This document shows, one piece after another, positions 9,431 through 27,289 of a stretch of DNA of 64,000 nucleotides. Both the position numbers and the translations under genes were made by a program. Where the stretch lies: NCBI GenBank assembly GCA_028280575.1, contig JANQLN010000057.1, positions 1 through 64,000 on the forward strand, written 5' to 3'. The stretch is from Clostridia bacterium. GTDB lineage: Bacteria > Bacillota > Clostridia > Acetivibrionales > STF1-152. Position 1 is the first letter of the stretch, and every line of letters begins with the position of its first letter. The notes below the pieces were generated by a model. It had not been told where the DNA came from and did not search any database. It saw only the letters and a program-made list of their open reading frames with translations.

Positions 9431-9530
9431 GTGTCATTGCGAACGAAGTGTGGCAATCTCATGCTTCGCAGGACTTACTATAAAAGGATATTTCATTACG
9501 GTCTGAGTCGCTTTGCTCCTTCGCAAGCAA
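9431..9530. repeat. REP-like interspersed element
   Basis: GTCATTGCGAACGAAG followed by GGCAATCTC, and 50 bases later the inverted counterpart CTTTGCTCCTTCGCAAG. The GTCATTGCGA-GCGAAG...GCAATCTC wording is a common palindromic repeat in many bacterial genomes. The gene-free stretch 9280-9638 otherwise shows nothing clear. Confidence 0.5.
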
Positions 9531-9638
9531 AAATCATACCTTCGTAAAAAAAGGGGAACCTCAAAAAATTGGACACTTGATAAAAAATTTCACTCGATGT
9601 ATAATTCAGTTACGATAGAGTACTGATCGATATCGTAA

Positions 9639-9818
9639 GTCTGTTCAATAGAATCCGATACCCACAACTACTTATTTTTATATGTAGATGGCAAAGCTGC
9701 CGGAACAGGAAGAATTAGACGTAGTTCAAGTGAAATCTTAAAAGCTAAAGGGGTTGGCAATTTGGGATATGGTATAGCTAAATCAGAAAGAGGAAAAGGT
9801 TATGGATATACCAATTAA
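9639..9818 (+). pseudogene. GNAT acetyltransferase fragment
   Basis: The plus strand is open from after a TAA at 9636 to the TAA at 9816 and reads LYVDGKAAGTGRIRR then VGNLGYGIAKSERGKGYGYT. The last part is the acetyl-CoA-binding motif A of GNAT enzymes (GYGI.psERGKGYG). Neither a start nor the N-terminal fold is present and the protein stops just after motif A, so it is a remnant. Its end overlaps the start of the P-loop kinase gene by 17 bases, which suggests a recombination joint. Confidence 0.55.
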
Positions 9819-10440
9819 TAGTCAGAAGTTCAATGAATTGATAGCTTTGAAGGAAAAGGTTACGAAGGAAGTAGAGCAAAGTTTAGTGATCCCTGAAAAC
9901 AAAAGGAGAAATAATAATCTGTTCTTATTTTTTGGCATACCAGGAAGTGGTAAGAGTACTCTTGCAAAAGTTATTGCTGAAGTAATTCCATGTGTTTATC
10001 TTTCCAGCGACATGATAGCATTAAATCATAATTTGGATCAAACAAGAAACTATTACTGGACATTTGAGATTATGAATGACTTGGCCAATAAGTACTTACA
10101 TGCAGGATATAATGTAATTGTTGATAGTAACTCTGATAGGTATTCAATAAGAAAAGAATTATATGAAATGGCATTTCGGCATAATGCAAAACCTTTTTGT
10201 TTTTGGGTAAAGACAGATATTAGTACCGTAAAAAGAAGGCAAAATATTAGAAAAATCTATAAATCTACATTAAGAAGCAAGTTTCTTTTTTATGTTAATT
10301 CAAATGAAATAGAAAAGTACCATAAAGACCTTGAAACTCCAAGAGAAGATGAGAATATTTTTACTATAGATGGTACAAAAGGCTTATTGAATCAACTATA
10401 CCCAATTGAGGAGATAAGAGGTTTAATTGATTCTAAATAA
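9802..10440 (+). CDS. P-loop kinase, AAA/zeta-toxin-like
   Basis: A 212-residue protein with a Walker A motif FFGIPGSGKSTLAKVIAE at about 43-60, then YLSSDMIALNHN and a VIVDSNSDRYSIRKELYEMA segment that matches the second strand and lid region of small nucleotide/polynucleotide kinases (TIGR/zeta-toxin/Pnk kinase-like fold). RRQNIRKIYKS is a basic lid. It has an AGGAAAAGG site. Substrate unknown: RNA ends, a nucleotide, or a small molecule are all possible. A highly similar but truncated copy lies inverted at 15284-15556 on the other side of the Pnkp/Hen1 operon, so the pair brackets the RNA-repair genes. Confidence 0.7.
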   Translation: MDIPINSQKFNELIALKEKVTKEVEQSLVIPENKRRNNNLFLFFGIPGSGKSTLAKVIAEVIPCVYLSSDMIALNHNLDQTRNYYWTFEIMNDLANKYLHAGYNVIVDSNSDRYSIRKELYEMAFRHNAKPFCFWVKTDISTVKRRQNIRKIYKSTLRSKFLFYVNSNEIEKYHKDLETPREDENIFTIDGTKGLLNQLYPIEEIRGLIDSK

Positions 10441-15143: not shown

Positions 15144-15157
15144 TGTGAGTTCTCATA
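15144..15157 (+). repeat. isolated copy of the Tn7-like left-terminus motif
   Basis: TGTGAGTTCTCATA is identical to the first 14 bases of the two left ends at 17704 and 20832, in the same orientation. No GTTTGAAA sites follow, so it is at most a scar of an older end. Confidence 0.35.
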
Positions 15158-15283: not shown

Positions 15284-15556
15284 TTAATTTTCGTCAATAA
15301 TACCTGACTCGAATATGAATGGTTTGTTAGATCTATTATTATTCCCACTAATATTTTGCCTTCTTTTTACAGTACTAATATCTGTCTTTATCCAAAAACA
15401 AAAAGAGGTTGCATTATGCTGAAATGCCATTTCATATAACTCTTTTCTTGTTGAATATCTATCAGAGTTACTATCAACAATTACATTATATCCTTCATAT
15501 AAATACTTATTGGCCAAGTCATTCATAATCTCAAATGTCCATTTCAAACTACACAA
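15284..15556 (-). pseudogene. truncated inverted copy of the P-loop kinase gene
   Basis: The minus-strand ORF reads WTFEIMNDLANKYLYEGYNV then IVDSNSDRYSTRKELYEMAF and VKRRQNI, almost the same as the kinase at 9802-10440 over about 70 residues. The Walker A N-terminus and the C-terminal third are absent; after RRQNI the frame runs into unrelated codons. It is a partial inverted duplicate flanking the RNA-repair operon, and is inactive because the P-loop is missing. Confidence 0.8.
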
Positions 15557-17703: not shown

Positions 17704-17810
17704 TGTGAGTTCTCATATAGTTTGAAATTTTCTGAACGTAAAATCAACGTTTGAGCCTAAATATTCTCAGCAAGTTTGAAAATTTTTCTCAAATAGTTTG
17801 AAAAAAACTT
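17704..17810 (+). repeat. Tn7-like left end, outer copy
   Basis: TGTGAGTTCTCATATAG then repeated AGTTTGAAA sites. The first 52 bases are identical to the left end at 20832 and the last 38 nearly so, while the 16 bases between differ. These are TnsB-type binding sites. No transposase gene follows; cargo-like genes (orf379, merR) occupy the next 3 kb. Bases 17811-18127 are AT-rich with nothing else visible. Confidence 0.8.
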
Positions 17811-18127
17811 CTTGAATTTCTATTGTTTTTTACATGGTACTATTAACAATAATCCTTAAAATAATTATTTTCAATATTATACCATGGTATAATTTACCTG
17901 CCAATAAATTAAATTTTTTTCAGAAAATACAATTTCAAATCACTATTTACATGTAATTCATCTCTTATATATTTATACATACCACAACTTTATAAGATTT
18001 ATTATATCACATGCCTTGTGTAGAGGATAAATGTGTACAGCTGGCACACTAGCCCCTTGGTCTGCAGTTTAATTAGATTTTTGGTTTTTATATATACTGA
18101 GATTTATAGAATCGTATAGGTTACCAT

Positions 18128-19249
18128 TCAAACCTTAGTACAATCAGGTATTTTCTGACCATTCTTCTTTTTTTGCATACTTGCCAGCTCGCTATCCTGC
18201 CATATTTTTATTTCCTGACTTATATCAAGTAATGACTCATTCAAAGAAAAACGAAACCCTTCACAACCTTTTTGACAGTTGCCGTGACCGCTGCCCTTTT
18301 TTCTATCACACCCATATCCTTTAGAGATCTTTTCTTGTAAAAAATCAGGGAATTTCGCGATCACATCAGCATATTTTGAGGTATTCTCTGTTTTAAGTAT
18401 GATACGGTAACCGTTATGCAAAGATGTCGAAAACCTCCATAATGCTTTACGTTTATACGAGTAGATAAAATGAACACATAAAAACCCTAATTCTACATTA
18501 CATTCCATTCCCGAGTCCAGATAATGTTGATGCAATTTTAAGACGAGTTCTTGCAAGGGAGCAGACAAGGGATAGACAAAATCTTGCAAAATAGAGGCAA
18601 CCTCCGTATCCTCGTTTTTCAGCGACCTGTAATCACATCGGAGTAAGATATCGTCATTTTTACGGGTTGATAGTTCATTCTGGGCAATCCCCAAAACCTT
18701 CCAACCTGTTAGCATAATCGGATAATCAGGATATGAAATTTCTACTGCTTCAATTTTTGATATATCAGGTTTTTTTATACTCAAGTCAATACCATGAAAA
18801 TTAATACCGCATTCAGTCAGAAATCTCATACTTTTAATCATTTGCGGAACAGGAATTTTCGCCGTTGAATTTTTATTAAGAGATCTTTTGAGGCTAAGAA
18901 TTTCCCAGTCATTAACCAACAGTGAATCACCTTTCTCCGATAATATACCATGCTGACCTATGTTTATTAATATGCTCCTAATGTTGTTTAAGAATGGAAA
19001 CTCTACCGTTAAAGTTGTTTCGTCTGAAAACTTTTTTTTGCCTTTTTTAGGTACATTACATAAACTGTTATCAGCCATTAAATAATCGCAAAATCGATAT
19101 AGAAAATCTCTAAAAGCGAGGACGCCATCTCGTATGTACTCTTCCTCCGAAATATTTCTAAACATAGAATTGATTGTATATGTTTCAGGAATATTCACTG
19201 GTATTAGTTGCTTCAATAACTTCGCCATATCTCCCATTGTTTTTTCCAT
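18128..19249 (-). CDS. unrecognised protein with C-terminal Cys cluster, next to MerR regulator
   Basis: The start is set at ATG 19249 (MEKTMGDMAKLLKQL) because AAAGGAG lies seven bases upstream; the tracked MKGDFF overlaps that site. About 373 residues, no signal peptide or membrane helix. The C-terminus has CDRKKGSGHGNCQKGCEGFR, a four-element Cys/His cluster that may bind a metal, followed by SLNESLLDISQEIKIWQDSE. I do not recognise the family. It is downstream of, and on the same strand as, a MerR/GyrI-like regulator, and both lie between two transposon left ends, so they look like cargo. Confidence 0.7.
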   Translation of the reverse strand: MEKTMGDMAKLLKQLIPVNIPETYTINSMFRNISEEEYIRDGVLAFRDFLYRFCDYLMADNSLCNVPKKGKKKFSDETTLTVEFPFLNNIRSILINIGQHGILSEKGDSLLVNDWEILSLKRSLNKNSTAKIPVPQMIKSMRFLTECGINFHGIDLSIKKPDISKIEAVEISYPDYPIMLTGWKVLGIAQNELSTRKNDDILLRCDYRSLKNEDTEVASILQDFVYPLSAPLQELVLKLHQHYLDSGMECNVELGFLCVHFIYSYKRKALWRFSTSLHNGYRIILKTENTSKYADVIAKFPDFLQEKISKGYGCDRKKGSGHGNCQKGCEGFRFSLNESLLDISQEIKIWQDSELASMQKKKNGQKIPDCTKV

Positions 19250-19478
19250 AAAAAAATCTCCTTTCATCTAGTTTTTGACTTTACTTTTGGGATCTAGCTT
19301 AGCAATTGATTTCATATTAATTATCCCTACTTTTTTCAAAAAATCCCTAGATCTATTTATAGCATTTGGTGGTAAAATAATAAGTCAATATCGTAATCAT
19401 ATCAATTAATATTCATATTATATGATTTCCAATAAAAGCAAAACCTGTCCCAGGTTCTAGTAAAAGAGGTCAAAGTGC

Positions 19479-20459
19479 TTAAATATCATCTTTCAGCTTT
19501 ATAGGAAAATATCTTTGCATTTGTTTATAGCCAAGTCCCTTTTCTATATCTTTATAGGCAATATCTCTTCCGTCTTCATATAAGTAAGGCATATTGAACA
19601 TAACATTGCGGTCTTTGTCAAACTCAAAATTTGTGTTTTCAATCCATCGACCAACTTTATCTTCCACTTTATTTATACTCTCATTATCTTCGTCTATACT
19701 GACTGCCATAGCGTACAAGCCTCCTGGAAAATCGTATAATTTAAAAGGACTTAAATCCACATTGGCAACACCATCTTTAACGGCGCATATCCATTCAGCT
19801 TTGTCATTTTTAGAAATCAAAAAATCAAAACAATCGAAAATCACATTCTTATACAAATGACAATACTGCCATAGTTGGTACATATATCCGCCTTCTTTAA
19901 ACATTTCCCCCCACGGTTGGTCTCCACACGTTACCGCCTTGAATTCTGGTATCCTAACGACCATTATATCAGGAATTTTTTTATCTAATTTTTCCGTTAT
20001 TTCAATCAAGCGGTTTATATTGGAGGGTTTACCAATATATTCGATGTTTATTAAATGTGTTTCAATCTCTTTAGCCTTATTATACAGCAGTTTTATATCT
20101 GAGTTTTCTGCAAAGTTCACTTGTTCTATTTCGCGTATAAAATCCAGCACGATTTCTTTCAACTCATGCAAAAGCGAAACCTCATCGTCTATACTCTGCA
20201 CTTTTTTCCCCAACACTTCTAATACTACATCGGAACCAGAAGTGTTGAAAACACGTTGAATGTCTTTTATGCTGATATTCAGCTTACGTAAAATTAGTAT
20301 TTGTTCAAGTCGCCTAATAGCATTTTCGTCGTACATTCTATATGCGTAGTCATCACTTCGAGTGCTAGACAGCAATCCCATGTCCTCATAATAACGCAGT
20401 GTACGGGCTGTAATGTCATATTTGCTTGACACATCTTTGATTTTGATTAGGTTGTTCAC
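19479..20459 (-). CDS. MerR-family regulator with GyrI-like effector domain
   Basis: 326 residues. The N-terminal MerR winged helix is clear (IKDVSSKYDITARTLRYYED, then YRMYDENAIRRLEQILILRK), then a coiled linker about 80-130. The rest looks like a GyrI/BmrR small-molecule domain (VVRIPEFKAVTCGDQPWGEM, LYDFPGGLYAMAVS). Such proteins activate efflux or detoxification genes on binding a drug-like ligand. Its promoter has the 19-base spacer and dyad typical of MerR operators. The only same-strand partner is orf379, 230 bp downstream. Confidence 0.88.
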   Translation of the reverse strand: MNNLIKIKDVSSKYDITARTLRYYEDMGLLSSTRSDDYAYRMYDENAIRRLEQILILRKLNISIKDIQRVFNTSGSDVVLEVLGKKVQSIDDEVSLLHELKEIVLDFIREIEQVNFAENSDIKLLYNKAKEIETHLINIEYIGKPSNINRLIEITEKLDKKIPDIMVVRIPEFKAVTCGDQPWGEMFKEGGYMYQLWQYCHLYKNVIFDCFDFLISKNDKAEWICAVKDGVANVDLSPFKLYDFPGGLYAMAVSIDEDNESINKVEDKVGRWIENTNFEFDKDRNVMFNMPYLYEDGRDIAYKDIEKGLGYKQMQRYFPIKLKDDI

Positions 20460-20497
20460 TTGTTTCGACCTCTTTTCTTAATTACAATGATAAACTT

Positions 20498-20528
20498 ATT
20501 ATAAAGTCTTCCCCAAAGGAAGAGTCAA
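20498..20528 (-). promoter_or_regulatory. MerR-type promoter with 19-base spacer and central dyad
   Basis: Minus strand: TTGACT, 19-base spacer, TATAAT, ending about 40 bases before merR. The spacer contains the inverted repeat CTTCCTTTGGGGAAG. A long spacer with the dyad between the hexamers is the hallmark of MerR-activated promoters, so merR is probably autoactivated. Confidence 0.75.
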
Positions 20529-20831
20529 GAGGGTAATACTGCTTTCTATGGAAAATATAAATACTCTTTGTAAGTCATCATTGACAAGTAGCTCCTATTA
20601 TAACATAACTCTCCTCCAAAAAAATATAGTCTATGTCTCTTGGCTTATTTTCCTTTGCAATAACACTATACTTTCACAATAACTCGAGTTGATGCCATTG
20701 ACGTCTTTGGCTGATTTTTTAACCCTTGCATTTGAGGGAACATATCCAATATGATTTTAACAACTTCTTCAGAAATGACGTGCGTGGGAACATGTCAATA
20801 AAAAACCACATTATGTTTTATACTGCAAAAG

Positions 20832-20938
20832 TGTGAGTTCTCATATAGTTTGAAATTTTCTGAACGTAAAATCAACGTTTGAGACCATGTTTTATGACTA
20901 AGTTTGAAAAGTTTTCTCAAATAGTTTGAAAAAAACTT
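20832..20938 (+). repeat. Tn7-like left end, inner copy
   Basis: TGTGAGTTCTCATATAG, then AGTTTGAAA sites at 20848, 20901 and 20923. It is followed within five bases by the tnsB remnant, with no room for tnsA or the 5' part of tnsB. The stretch 20529-20831 before it shows nothing clear. Confidence 0.85.
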
Positions 20939-20942
20939 TTAA

Positions 20943-21629
20943 GGAATTGAACTTTATGGTCTATATTATAACTCTGCAAAGCTTAACAGCGTATGTATAC
21001 AATTCAATGAAGAAAATAATGGAAGCAGAGAAAAATTTAAAGTAAAATATGATCCTCATAATCTCTCAAAAATATATGTTTATGATCATTTAATAAATCA
21101 ACAGTGGATTGAAGTTCCTGCTAAATGCCAGGAATATGCAGATGGCTTAACTGAATGGGAACACAATGAAATAAGAAAGCATGCTAGGATAAAATTTGGT
21201 GAGGTTGATATAATAGGTCTTGCCAAATCAAAATCACTTATAAGAAAAAAAATAGATGCATTTTCCGGATATTCAAAAAAACAAATTGCCAAAGCTAAGA
21301 GGATTGACTCATCAAATGAAATAGCAGATTGTAACTTAACTAATAAGATTGAGTTGAAACTTGTTGATGAAAAAAAAGAACCCTTTAAAAATACAGGTTA
21401 TGTAATATGTGAAAAATCTCAAAACAAAGTTTCAAGTGAGATTTTTAACAAAGAGGATAAGATAATAACTCTTGACTATGTTAATATACCTAAAGACTCT
21501 AAAAAAAGTAAAAAAGGCACCAATAAAAATAAAACTTTAATCGCTGAAAGTTTTATACTGGAAGCTGATCAAGACTTGACTGAAAGTGATTTAAATGGAT
21601 TTAACTTTATCAGCGAGGAGAGAGAATAA
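20943..21629 (+). pseudogene. tnsB: C-terminal remnant of TnsB transposase
   Basis: The frame is open from the TAA at 20940 to 21629 and contains the tracked 91-residue ORF. It begins GIELYGLYYNSAKLNSVC, then VKYDPHNLSKIYVYD, which is the beta-barrel after the DDE domain of Mu/TnsB-type transposases, and ends with the charged tail that contacts TnsC. About 228 residues remain; the DDE catalytic core and DNA-binding domains are lost. There is no start codon or ribosome site for the visible part. The stop abuts the GTG of tnsC, so the original tnsB-tnsC coupling is preserved. Confidence 0.85.
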
Positions 21630-22613
21630 GTGTTTATTGAAGATAATTTTAACATAGAAGCTACATATAAAAAGATGCATTTTTTAAAACACTTGACAAT
21701 AAAATATCCTCTTATGCAATCCATCCATAATTGTCTATACAAATGTCAACTGAGCACCCTTTATTCTGATACTCCTGAATGCATGAGTATTCTAGGCCCT
21801 TCCCGTTCAGGCAAAAGCAAGTTAGTAAAATCCTATTTTAAAAAATTTCCTGATAAGAGAACACCAGAAGGAATAATAAAAAAGATTTTGTATTGCACTG
21901 TTCCAATCCCTGGTGTTAGAGGAGCTTTAGGTCCTGCAATGCTTGAATCTTTAAAAGATCCTTTTTACAAGAAAAAACAATTAAGTGCAGATAGAAATTT
22001 TAGAATAATTGAATTGATAAAAAAATGTAAAGTTGAATTAATTATAATAGATGAAATTCAACACATTGTAGATAGAAATAATAACCGTTTACTTAGAGAA
22101 TCTGCTGATTGGTTTAAATATATACTAGAACAGACCAATGTATCTTTTGTTTTTGTAGGGCTAAAAGAATCTAAAAAAATATTCTGGGGAAATGAACAAT
22201 TGAGAGCAAGAGTACGTAATAACTTTAATACATCAGCCTTTACATATTCTAAAGAATACCGGGCTTTTCTTTATAGCCTTGATTTGTCTTTATCAAAAAT
22301 GGGTCTCAAAATATCCAACTTAGCAGATCCAGATACTGCAAAAAGAATATACTTAGCTTCTCAAGGGCTCATTGGTAACATAATGACTCTAATTAAAGAA
22401 GCTGTATTCATCACTTTACAAAAAAATCAATCTGTATTGACATTTGATAACTTATTTGAGAGCTATGAGAATAAATTAACTGATATCTATTCAAAAAATC
22501 CTTTTGATATCCAGTTTAGTGTTTCCAAAGCAATGCAGGAGTTTACGCCATTGCCAAAAATTGATTCAGAACTATCTGGGCCAATGACAAATAATCGAAT
22601 AAATACAAGATGA
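21630..22613 (+). CDS. tnsC: TnsC/TniB-type AAA+ ATPase
   Basis: 327 residues, GTG start directly after the tnsB stop with GAGGAGAG upstream. Walker A GPSRSGKSKL at about 56-65, Walker B in LIIIDEIQHIVD near 140, sensor region FVFVGLKESKKIF. This is the regulator that links target choice by TniQ/TnsD to the transposase. It looks intact, with no frameshift. With TnsB truncated it may now act only in trans, or provide target immunity for related elements. Confidence 0.9.
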   Translation: MFIEDNFNIEATYKKMHFLKHLTIKYPLMQSIHNCLYKCQLSTLYSDTPECMSILGPSRSGKSKLVKSYFKKFPDKRTPEGIIKKILYCTVPIPGVRGALGPAMLESLKDPFYKKKQLSADRNFRIIELIKKCKVELIIIDEIQHIVDRNNNRLLRESADWFKYILEQTNVSFVFVGLKESKKIFWGNEQLRARVRNNFNTSAFTYSKEYRAFLYSLDLSLSKMGLKISNLADPDTAKRIYLASQGLIGNIMTLIKEAVFITLQKNQSVLTFDNLFESYENKLTDIYSKNPFDIQFSVSKAMQEFTPLPKIDSELSGPMTNNRINTR

Positions 22614-22784
22614 AAATAATTATAAAACTGATTTATAATTATTTGATAAAATATTGATTGGTAATTATTAATCTATTGACTTAAAATTAACAATGATATA
22701 CCATTAATTCACAATGGTAGTATATTACTGACTAAACAATTTATAAATTAATTATGTAATAATAAATCTAAGGAAGTGTAATTG

Positions 22785-23237
22785 ATGAGTAATTGGTATA
22801 ATGTAAATAACCAATCTGATATAGATTATTTAATAAAGATTTATGGTGGGTTTCATGATGCTTGTATAACAGAACTTCGTTATATGAGTGGAGCTGATGT
22901 AAATGAGAATTTATCAATGGGGTTTGGAGAATCTATAGATAGAAAACTATTTGTGATATTTAAAAGGCAATGGAAACCGATAAAAATTGAATTATTGTTT
23001 CAAGGAATGCGTCAAATGAATGTTGCTGGTTGGCAAAATTGCTATTTTTGTGATATATTTGATTGCTATCTTGCGCTACATAATGACTTGATAAAAGGAA
23101 GAGATGATAGATTAATTGTATGGGCAGATAATGCTGGATTTAATCCGAAGGAGCTTTACGAAAGGGATAGTCTTTGTGAGCCAATAACAACATATGTAAT
23201 TTCAGAAAAATTAAAATGGAGGTTACTTGAAAATTAA
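22785..23237 (+). CDS. unrecognised 150-residue transposon cargo protein
   Basis: ATG at 22785 with AAGGAAG six bases upstream. The sequence is acidic and Trp/Cys-rich in the middle (NVAGWQNCYFCDIFDCYLAL), with no signal peptide or membrane segment. IDYLIKIYGGFHDACITELR recalls the opening of several small immunity-like proteins, but I cannot name the family. It sits between tnsC and tniQ inside the element, with its own 170-bp AT-rich upstream region holding inverted repeats (TACCATT...AATGGTA). A lone immunity or defence-related cargo gene is possible. Confidence 0.6.
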   Translation: MSNWYNVNNQSDIDYLIKIYGGFHDACITELRYMSGADVNENLSMGFGESIDRKLFVIFKRQWKPIKIELLFQGMRQMNVAGWQNCYFCDIFDCYLALHNDLIKGRDDRLIVWADNAGFNPKELYERDSLCEPITTYVISEKLKWRLLEN

Positions 23238-23407
23238 CTTGAGTCATAGAGTATAATGTAAAGTAAGTTTGACATACAATCTTTATAAAAAGAAAACTAT
23301 TAATTACAATTATTTCATTTAAATGTAATGTTGATAATATCAATAATTTGGTATATATTGGTTCTTCAGTGAAACTTTTTTTAACAAATAACATTCGTTA
23401 TATATTA

Positions 23408-24718
23408 TTATGTATAACCTATTGCTTTATAGAAATTATTCACCTCAATTTTCCTAATATATATTGACTTGAGTCCAAAATGAGAAATATCAATTTTAAT
23501 ATCTATGCTAAATAAAGATAACCAATGGAGAAAAATGTAAAATGTATTTATATCATAATTTTTAAAATATTCTTTTTTAACTTCAAATAAGTTTACATAA
23601 TTAGAAATATCTTTATCAATTAATAAATCACCTTTATCTATGAACTTCTTAAAAAAAGCAGTTAAATACTCTATTTGAGAATATGCTTTTTCGGTTTTTT
23701 TTATTTTATAATTTATTTTAAGTAATTTGGCCAAATCTATATCAAAGACAAGCCTAGCCCATTTATGTATACTATACCTTCCTCTGTAACTATTATTATA
23801 TTCAAAATTTTTGATGAAATAATATGATGTGAATCGTGCTTTATAAGAAAGCCAGCATTCTTTACTGATGAATTTTAAATCCATAAATTGATTTATTATT
23901 TTAAATTTATACTTTCCAATATAGTTATCTAGAAACATACCAAATTTTGTAGACCAATCATTTATAATTTCATATATATATCTATATGTGTGAAATCTGC
24001 CTTTAATTGTATTATCGTCAATAAGATTATTAAATTTTATAGAACCGTAATTATCATTAATAAGTTTGTCCAAAACTAATACTAATTTTAGAAATTCAAT
24101 ATCATTGCATTTAAAAGGCAGTACAGGTCTCTTTATTTTTTCAGAAATGTTATATGCACTATTAATATATTGCTGTAATTTTATAATGGAAGATATCCTA
24201 CAATATTCTGGTTTGCTAGCTGCTAAATACTTTCTACAATAACAAATCCCACTTGTTAAATTTTTAGAAAAAACCTTATAACCGCAATGTGTACATTTTT
24301 CAATTAAAGTAGTATTATGCTTAACACAGAACTTATTTAAAGCAAGCATCCACGAAAGTCTTTGATAGTTGTTTTCTTTCAAACATAATGGACAAAATTT
24401 TACAGAACAAGAATCAAATCCATTAAATGGATATTGGGATTTTATTTCTTTATTTTTATACCAAGACCCAAAAATGTATTTGTGAATTGTCATGTTATAG
24501 ACTTGCTCCACTTTTAAGTTTGCTATATGTGCTATTCTTTTTATTGTTTCAATGTCCTTAATACGATTAATAGTATGATTATCTGTATTTATACGAATAT
24601 TAACATGACTTTTTATCCAAAAATAAGGTACACTATTCTCAATAGCTAATCTATTTAAATAGCTTGCCAAACTTTCATCTTCATATGGTTTAGGATGAAA
24701 AAGAAGTTTATCACTCAT
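23408..24718 (-). CDS. tniQ: TniQ/TnsD-family target-selection protein
   Basis: 436 residues. The N-terminal TniQ domain (about 1-160) has the start LLFHPKPYEDESLASYLNRL and zinc-finger cysteines CPLC, C-x2-H (KFCVKHN), CTHC and CYC. A further 270 residues with aromatic, basic segments follow, longer than the short TniQ of CRISPR-linked elements and closer to TnsD-like site-specific factors. It is transcribed opposite to tnsC from beside the right end. No CRISPR array or cas genes are nearby. A role in recognising the end of glgD is my inference. Confidence 0.88.
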   Translation of the reverse strand: MSDKLLFHPKPYEDESLASYLNRLAIENSVPYFWIKSHVNIRINTDNHTINRIKDIETIKRIAHIANLKVEQVYNMTIHKYIFGSWYKNKEIKSQYPFNGFDSCSVKFCPLCLKENNYQRLSWMLALNKFCVKHNTTLIEKCTHCGYKVFSKNLTSGICYCRKYLAASKPEYCRISSIIKLQQYINSAYNISEKIKRPVLPFKCNDIEFLKLVLVLDKLINDNYGSIKFNNLIDDNTIKGRFHTYRYIYEIINDWSTKFGMFLDNYIGKYKFKIINQFMDLKFISKECWLSYKARFTSYYFIKNFEYNNSYRGRYSIHKWARLVFDIDLAKLLKINYKIKKTEKAYSQIEYLTAFFKKFIDKGDLLIDKDISNYVNLFEVKKEYFKNYDINTFYIFLHWLSLFSIDIKIDISHFGLKSIYIRKIEVNNFYKAIGYT

Positions 24719-24794
24719 ATTATTCCTCTAGTAAAATTTTATAAGATTATAGAATCTAATCTTATAAAAAAACCGAGGCTGGAAATCAGCCCCA

Positions 24795-24865
24795 ATTATT
24801 TCAAACTTTCTGCAAATTTTTTTCACACTTTTTGCAAATAATTTCAAACTTTTTGCAAACTCACA
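24795..24865 (-). repeat. Tn7-like right end
   Basis: Read on the minus strand it starts TGTGAGTTTGCAAAAAGTTT and holds three copies of the unit TTTGCARAAAGTKTGAAA spaced about 21-23 bases. A GGCTG...CAGCC stem followed by TCGGTTTTTTT lies just inside (24773-24795) and could stop readthrough from glgD. A further palindrome ATAAGATTA...TAATCTTAT is at 24741-24765 before tniQ. Confidence 0.82.
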
Positions 24866-24893
24866 GCAAAAGATAACACCATTATTATATTGC

Positions 24894-26015
24894 TTAAACA
24901 AAACCATTTTTACCTATTATAATGGGCCAGTTGCTATCGCCTTTAAGGTTTTTGCCTCCTGTTATCCTTACATTTTTGTCAAGTATGGCATATTCAAGGT
25001 AGGTTCCTTCCTCAATTACGGAGTCCTGCATTATGATGCTGTCCTTAATTACCACATCCTTGTTTACAGTAACGCCCCTGAAAAGGACACTGTTAATGAC
25101 CTTGCCTTCTATGATGCAGCCATCCGCTACTATGGAATTGGAAACTTCTGCTTCTTGATTATATTTTGCCGGGGTCTCGTCCTTGACTTTTGTGTAAACC
25201 TTTCCTTCCCTTAGAAAAAGTTCATAAATCAAATCAGGCTTGAGAAGCTCCATGTTGCATTTATAATATCCCCTTACTGTGCTTATATTTCTCCAGTAGC
25301 CCTCAAACTTGTATCCGTACACCTTCATGGTTTCCAGTTTCCTTATCAGTATATCCTTGACAAAATCATAGTTCCCGTGAGCTACACATTTTTCAATAAG
25401 TGATATCAAAAGCTCTCTTTCAAGGAAATATATGCCCATGGAACCAAGGTTTGTTTCAGGATTCAAGGGCTTTTCCTGCAGGTCTGTAACTCTTTGATTC
25501 TCGTCAGTTTTAATAATGCCAAGCTGGCTCAGTTCATCCTTAGTGAAATCATCCATTTTTCTGTATGCAATGGTCACATCAGCCTTGTTTTCCATATGAA
25601 ATTCCAGCATTTTTTCAAAATCCATTTTATATACCGAATTCCCCTGTACTATAACGACATATTTTTCATCACTTCTTTTAAGGAAAGTAAGATTATTATA
25701 AAGAGCATCCGCACTTCCTTTATACCAGCCGGAGTCGTCATTTCCCATTGAAGGCGGAAAAATAAATAAGCCGTCCCTTTTTCTGTCTAAATCCCATTCC
25801 TTGCCTGAACCCAGATGATCCATTAATGATCTGAAGCTGAATTGGGTAATCACTCCAACATTTGTTATGCCTGAGTTAACCATATTGGAAAGAGCAAAAT
25901 CTATAGCTCTGTATTTTCCAGCAACCGGTATGGCCGAACTCGATCTTATAGCAGAAAGGTCTTTAAGCTGAGGTTTTTTCCATCCGGTTAATATAATACC
26001 CATCACTGAAATCAT
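24894..26015 (-). CDS. glgD: glucose-1-phosphate adenylyltransferase regulatory subunit GlgD
   Basis: About 373 residues. The start is taken as ATG 26015, overlapping the glgC stop as ATGA; ATG 26021 (MRM) is also possible. The track start at 26069 is too early. Nucleotidyltransferase fold with [20 protein letters not shown], and left-handed beta-helix repeats near the end ([19 protein letters not shown]). The GGQGSR loop of catalytic subunits is degenerate here ([12 protein letters not shown]), as in other GlgD. With GlgC it makes ADP-glucose for glycogen. The 3' flank is the transposon right end. Confidence 0.93.
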
Positions 26016-27289
26016 TCGCATTCTTCCCCCTTCAAAACGCTTTGTCCCGATTCTACAACAAAAGAACAATAGTTATTCTGATTTATTCCGACTTCAATAA
26101 CAACATTTTTCCCAACCTGTAAATTATCAGGCAATGATGCTTTTTCTCCAATAACCGTTATGCCGCAATTATAAAGGTCCGGTCTTTTCTCATTGGCAAT
26201 ATTTTCTCCTATTCCTATTTTAACATTGTCTCCACAAACAACACTCTCGCTGATTATTGCTTTATCAATTATTGAATTCCTACCAATAAAGCTGTTGGAC
26301 ATTACAATTGAGTCCTTAATTACTGCTCCTGAGGAAACATAAACTCCAGGAAACAAAACAGAATTATTAACTTCCCCATAAATCATACATCCCTCAGCAA
26401 CAATTGAAGTTTTTATTCTGCCTTCCGGAGCAACATAATGGGCTGGTTTCACAGGATTGGGAGTATATATTTTCCAATCAGGGTCATAAAGATTAAATTC
26501 AGGCACCCTTTTAACCAGGTCCATATTTGATTCCCAATATGATTGAATTGTGCCGACATCTCTCCAATATCCGTCAAATCTATATGCCCACATGCTTTTA
26601 CCATCGTTAAGCATTTTGGGTATGATATTCTTACCAAAGTCGTGGACGGACGCCTTATCCTGGTCATCATTTATCAGATATTCCCTGAGGATTTTCCAAC
26701 TGAATACATATACCCCCATCGAAGCCAGAGTATTTTTTGGCTGGGCAGGCTTTTCTTCAAATTCAAATATCCTATCCTCATTATCAGTATTCATAATCCC
26801 ATATCTGCAAGCTTCATGCAAAGGCACTCCAATCACGGAAATCGTCGCATCCGCCTGTTTTCCCTTATGGAAACCAATCATCTTTGAATAGTCCATTTTA
26901 TATATGTGGTCTCCTGAAAGAATAATAACATACTTTGGAGATACTTTATCTATGTAGTCAATATTATGAAATATGGCATTTGCAGTTCCAAGATACCATT
27001 GACCTGCGTCCTCAGTCATATAGGGAGAGAGCACCGTAACACCTCCTGTAATTCTGTCCATATCCCAAGGCTTGCCAATACCTATATGTGAATTGAGTTT
27101 TTGAGGACGGTACTGGGTGAGCACACCTACATTATCAATACCGGAATTAATACAATTACTCAAAGAAAAATCAATTATCCTGTACTTGCCTCCATACAAA
27201 ACCGCAGGTTTGGCTATTTTTTTTGTCAATACTCCAAGCCTGCTGCCTTGTCCTCCCGCAAGCAAAAGCGCCATAATTTCCTTTTTCAT
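26012..27289 (-). CDS. glgC: glucose-1-phosphate adenylyltransferase GlgC
   Basis: Catalytic subunit of ADP-glucose pyrophosphorylase, first step of glycogen synthesis. ATG 27289 has GAGGAGG eight bases upstream. Motifs: [14 protein letters not shown] (nucleotide loop), [71 protein letters not shown], then C-terminal hexapeptide repeats. 425 residues, normal for the family. Translationally coupled to glgD. Confidence 0.96.

Follow-up and report, generated by a model that had tools for sequence, protein, structure and literature searches.

The window, a 64,000-nucleotide stretch, carries at positions 20832–24865 the remains of what was very probably a glgD-homing Tn7-like transposon, inserted at the 3′ end of that gene, which lost tnsA and most of tnsB and is now a recent fossil beside the debris of at least one older element. 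The anatomy of this unit, which we call the inner unit because a second left end lies outside it, can be read directly. Between its ends lie, in order, a 3′ fragment of tnsB (20943–21629, forward strand), tnsC (21630–22613, forward), which begins right after the tnsB stop codon, a cargo open reading frame of 151 amino acids (22782–23237, forward) and, in reverse, a tniQ/tnsD-like target selector (23408–24718, reverse; 436 amino acids), which is convergent with tnsC and adjoins the right end. Beyond the right end is glgD (24894–26069, reverse; TIGR02092), whose 3′ end would be the attachment site. TnsC and TniQ/TnsD, both expected of a Tn7-like transposon, are present, as are arrays of approximately 22-bp repeats in inverse orientation with TGT termini, the repeats being predicted TnsB-binding sites. 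Of the expected TnsB-type DDE transposase there is the C-terminal part alone, and TnsA is missing. We conclude that the inner unit is a defective derivative of a Tn7-like transposon and not an autonomous member. It does not qualify as a CAST: only four gene-sized frames lie between the ends, none matching a cas family, and the element's direct repeats include no CRISPR-like array. On the simplest account, a Tn7-like transposon would have inserted at the glgD 3′ end, with TniQ as a TnsD-type site reader, next to what was left of one or more older elements with nearly the same left end. A later internal deletion would then have removed tnsA together with roughly the 5′ three quarters of tnsB, and the remainder (the ends, tnsC, tniQ and one cargo gene), incapable of self-transposition, could be a substrate for TnsA and TnsB acting in trans. 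This deletion is judged against distant homologues (TnsC about 32% identical), the full-length ones, in other phyla, carrying tnsA-tnsB-tnsC-tniQ.

Both ends are intact, as a preliminary description of this DNA had held. The inner left end (20832–20938, forward) begins TGTGAGTTCTCATATAGTTTGAAA, with TGTGAG at 20832, and carries TnsB-site-like repeats in several copies, two of them lying at about 20838 and 20914 and a degenerate one at about 20891. The right end (24793–24865, reverse) has three sites of the same type, spaced by 21 and 22 bp, and a TGTGAG terminus reading inward. The window holds seven matches to the site against 0.63 expected, and none of 100 shuffles reached seven. The right-end sites (24799–24859) read TTTGCA... 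and the clear left-end sites (20838–20931) TTCTCA..., the subtypes being consistent within each end. A second, outer left end lies at 17704–17810 (forward) in the same orientation as the inner one and is 91% identical to it over 107 bp. The first 52 bp are identical, and the differences, about 10 in 107 positions, concentrate in the spacer before the inner repeats, a distribution between repeats that would fit constraint on the binding sites. The element can be viewed as a natural mini-Tn7 that shows which end sequences stay constant while the spacer between them changes.

The junction of the left end with tnsB is abrupt. The likeness of the two left ends ceases at 20938, a stop codon occupies 20940–20942 and the TnsB frame opens immediately after it at GGA (20943), leaving five or fewer bases between the left end and the TnsB part, in agreement with the five reported before. 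A TnsB profile covers only its positions 488–613 of 678, from 20940 on, and the Pfam Mu-transpos_C match (2.3e-6) starts only at profile position 17 of 61, so the cut falls within the beta-barrel domain rather than at its edge. Missing from the element are tnsA, all of tnsB up to and including the DDE core, and the start of the beta-barrel. What had been called the beta-barrel part is indeed a C-terminal piece of tnsB, but it is a truncated beta-barrel with the C-terminal part, and no clean domain. The reported loss of tnsA and the DDE core was likewise confirmed, although to call it precise was slightly strong: no full-length parent is known, so the exact breakpoint and any further losses are unreadable. 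It is very unlikely that the cell has tnsA and the 5′ part of tnsB and that these were collapsed or lost in the assembly. The genome (4.35 Mb, completeness 99.09%) is a draft of 143 contigs, and two left ends so alike and 3.1 kb apart can confuse assemblers, but the junction is internal to a 97-kb contig, the two ends can be told apart by their differences, the tnsB side has no repeat and no piece of TnsB occurs on any other contig.

The deletion is probably recent, since the tnsB fragment lacks a start for 137 codons and yet runs through 228 codons without a stop. Its first in-frame ATG, GTG or TTG is codon 138 (TTG at 21354), and translation of the fragment is unlikely. By composition, the probability that 227 random codons contain no stop is ~3e-10, and approximately 7% neutral substitution would introduce a stop into the fragment with 95% probability, counting substitutions only. 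Relative to homologues, conserved columns are kept at 13 of 14 positions in the tnsB fragment, 15 of 15 in tnsC and 13 of 14 in tniQ. The tnsC gene is a full-length open frame for a TniB/TnsC AAA+ ATPase of 327 amino acids (TniB match 5e-21) with intact Walker A and B motifs, and the closest solved structure is the Vibrio cholerae TnsC of the Tn6677 transposon (1e-25). The tniQ frame is also open over its full length (Pfam TniQ 1.2e-19) and matches the TniQ of a solved CAST complex (6e-8); at 436 amino acids it exceeds the 400 above which the protein is thought to choose targets directly in dual TniQ-TnsD loci (PMC10293859). The 151-amino-acid cargo frame (FHDACITELRY...) has no Pfam, NCBIfam or PADLOC match.

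The preliminary description was therefore right that tnsC and tniQ are intact. Its reading of these retained genes as a sign of use did not survive: the tnsB fragment, which is unlikely to be translated, is equally open and conserved, so that the state of tnsC and tniQ calls for no selection. Their intactness is no evidence of selection or of a kept immunity function, and the collections searched held no sequence near enough to either gene for dN/dS. Target immunity in Tn7 is a TnsB–TnsC interaction triggered by TnsB bound to the ends. With no full TnsB left in the genome, immunity of the Tn7 type is not available, and the earlier idea that the retained genes might serve target immunity is not upheld. 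It is highly improbable that tnsC and tniQ, alone or along with the TnsB tail, were kept to shield the glgD site by immunity or by occupying it. Both genes are intact and the extra left ends suggest repeated insertion, which makes a blocking pressure conceivable, whereas TniQ and TnsC at the site ought to recruit a transposase arriving there, and a tnsB fragment with no usable start is preserved just as well, so no selection need be invoked. The fragment does keep the C-terminal part of TnsB, whose C-terminal extension contacts TnsC in ShCAST (PMC11406308); in the same source, immunity belongs to the complete element. A working transposase-free module, in which TniQ and TnsC mark glgD, a short peptide from the TnsB tail, with translation starting at 21354, governs the TnsC filament and the locus attracts or repels related elements, is barely credible.

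Nothing found in the genome could move the element today. The preliminary description had proposed looking for a full-length relative in the same genome, and none was found: in this ~99%-complete genome the only TnsB is the present fragment, TnsC and TniQ occur once each, and a PF08722 search found no TnsA above the Pfam cut-off (one sub-threshold match lies in a 798-codon frame on another contig). Lacking TnsA and the TnsB core, the element would undergo neither excision nor joining; TniQ could still load TnsC after binding near glgD, but transposition is not to be expected in this cell. Because the ends are complete, movement in trans is possible in principle, and related TnsA and TnsB entering the cell may mobilise them. 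The complete left and right ends and the probable target-site repeat also agree with an evolved non-autonomous mini-Tn7-like element that brings its own targeting genes but relies on the TnsA and TnsB of related elements for movement, as do ends of the same type in other Clostridia, some with no detectable transposase nearby. We nevertheless consider such an origin unlikely, as the element is single-copy in a genome with no source of TnsB, the left-end/tnsB junction was not found at any other locus, and a non-autonomous element would have no need of a tnsB remnant.

The position of the unit points to glgD as a likely attachment gene for Tn7-like elements. In Tn7 at glmS, the right end adjoins glmS and the duplication has its centre about 25 bp downstream of the stop codon. 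Here, the right terminus lies 28 bp beyond the glgD stop codon, with tniQ adjoining the same end, which corresponds to the insertion expected of a Tn7-like element, approximately 25 bp downstream of a conserved gene with the right end proximal. Among relatives, glgD is well conserved in its final codons, which suits the need of a TnsD-type reader, and the location of the insertion suggests that TniQ reads glgD. A search of the open literature returned no paper naming Tn7-like and glgD together, and the main texts of two extensive Tn7 surveys (PMC10293859, PMC8649781) contain no word starting with 'glg'; glgD is thus added as a likely Tn7-like attachment gene for which we found no earlier description. 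A 7-bp direct repeat, GCAAAAG, abuts the inner left end (20825–20831, forward) and the right end (24866–24872, forward). With 15 occurrences in the 64,000 nucleotides, its chance at a given position is ~2e-4, and it is a probable target-site duplication. The immediate flanking 5-mers differ (AAAAG and GCAAA), and a 5-bp duplication, CAAAA, fits only with an element one base longer at each end. The empty glgD site would be predicted to read ...TACTGCAAAAGATAACACC...; gene order past glgD is not common to relatives, so no empty site can be named.

The glgD site was probably struck more than once. The outer left end has no right end of its own, either at 17810–20832 or, convincingly, elsewhere in the genome. 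A third, 14-bp exact copy of the left-end terminus (TGTGAGTTCTCATA) at 15144–15157 (forward) is a possible scar of a third, oldest left end; allowing up to one mismatch, the window contains three copies of this terminus against 0.02 expected. A stack of old insertions beside glgD is possible. The left ends and terminus copies are spaced by about 3.1 and 2.6 kb in one orientation, and the extra ones lack right ends. If GCAAAAG was duplicated by insertion of the inner unit itself, the sequence on the left of the repeat adjoined glgD before that insertion. The simplest order would then begin with an older element at the glgD site, followed by loss of its right part and insertion of the inner unit; the timing of the tnsB deletion relative to the inner insertion cannot be told. 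We rejected the composite of the outer left end and the sole right end as a single insertion, as the outer flank, GTCACAA, does not match the right flank, GCAAAAG, although this pair could be usable together. Between the two left ends, a gene for 379 amino acids at 18128 is matched in 4 of 60 genomes, this one included, and two of the other three matches are broken pieces, which marks it as accessory. Positions 15348–15541 repeat 10057–10250 in inverted orientation (194 bp, 94% identity), a gene fragment whose source is an ATP-binding kinase-like gene (9802–10440).

Relatives of the element are distant. TnsC searches of 58 genomes of the order at 1e-20 and 391 of the class at 1e-25 revealed no full-length close relative. 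A single-protein search of genome and viral contigs gave no close TnsC relative, and with a TnsC profile the best match in genome contigs was 34% identical, the class giving only weaker ones. The left end was not found in plasmids, nor the end patterns in viral contigs. The best TnsC relatives, ~32% identical, belong to tnsA-tnsB-tnsC-tniQ elements of cyanobacteria, Acidobacteria and others. In the plasmid collection, the best TnsC matches (32–33%) are to elements of Nostoc N6 (pNPM2) and Allocoleopsis PCC 7113 (pMIC7113.04), whose TnsB matches the C-terminal fragment at 41–42%. Unlike the unit described here, these elements have a complete tnsA-tnsB-tnsC-tniQ set with tniQ codirectional with tnsC, and no similar end repeats were found at their loci.

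Closer in their ends are remnants in three other clostridial genomes (G136, G397 and G185), which carry end arrays of the same site type, TTCTCAAATAGTTTGAAA, with 21–22-bp spacing in G136 and G397. Their attachment genes are other than glgD (glmS in G136, an esterase gene in G397), and no tnsC or tnsB was detected near any of the three. The G136 end is 20 bp downstream of glmS and is accompanied by a decayed tniQ pseudogene, oriented as in the inner unit, indicating that decay around an attachment site is not peculiar to this window. The G136 locus (L146, C71; 9579–9992) holds, directly past glmS, this pseudogene together with two termini resembling right ends (about 9851 and 9971). In G397 (L145, C3), the array lies at 9520–9694 at the 3′ end of the esterase gene, and a hairpin beside it (TTAGTTCTCATTGAAAAAG...) repeats part of the end sequence. 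Set against Tn7 and Tn7-like elements at glmS/attTn7, the inner unit lacks tnsA and most of tnsB and adjoins glgD, and it departs from Tn7 itself in its 7-bp flanking repeat, instead of the usual 5 bp, and in a tniQ opposite to tnsC. It shares with these elements arrays of ~20–22-bp TnsB sites at both ends, TGT termini, the tnsB-tnsC order, a TniQ and a right end that follows the stop codon of a conserved gene by ~25 bp.
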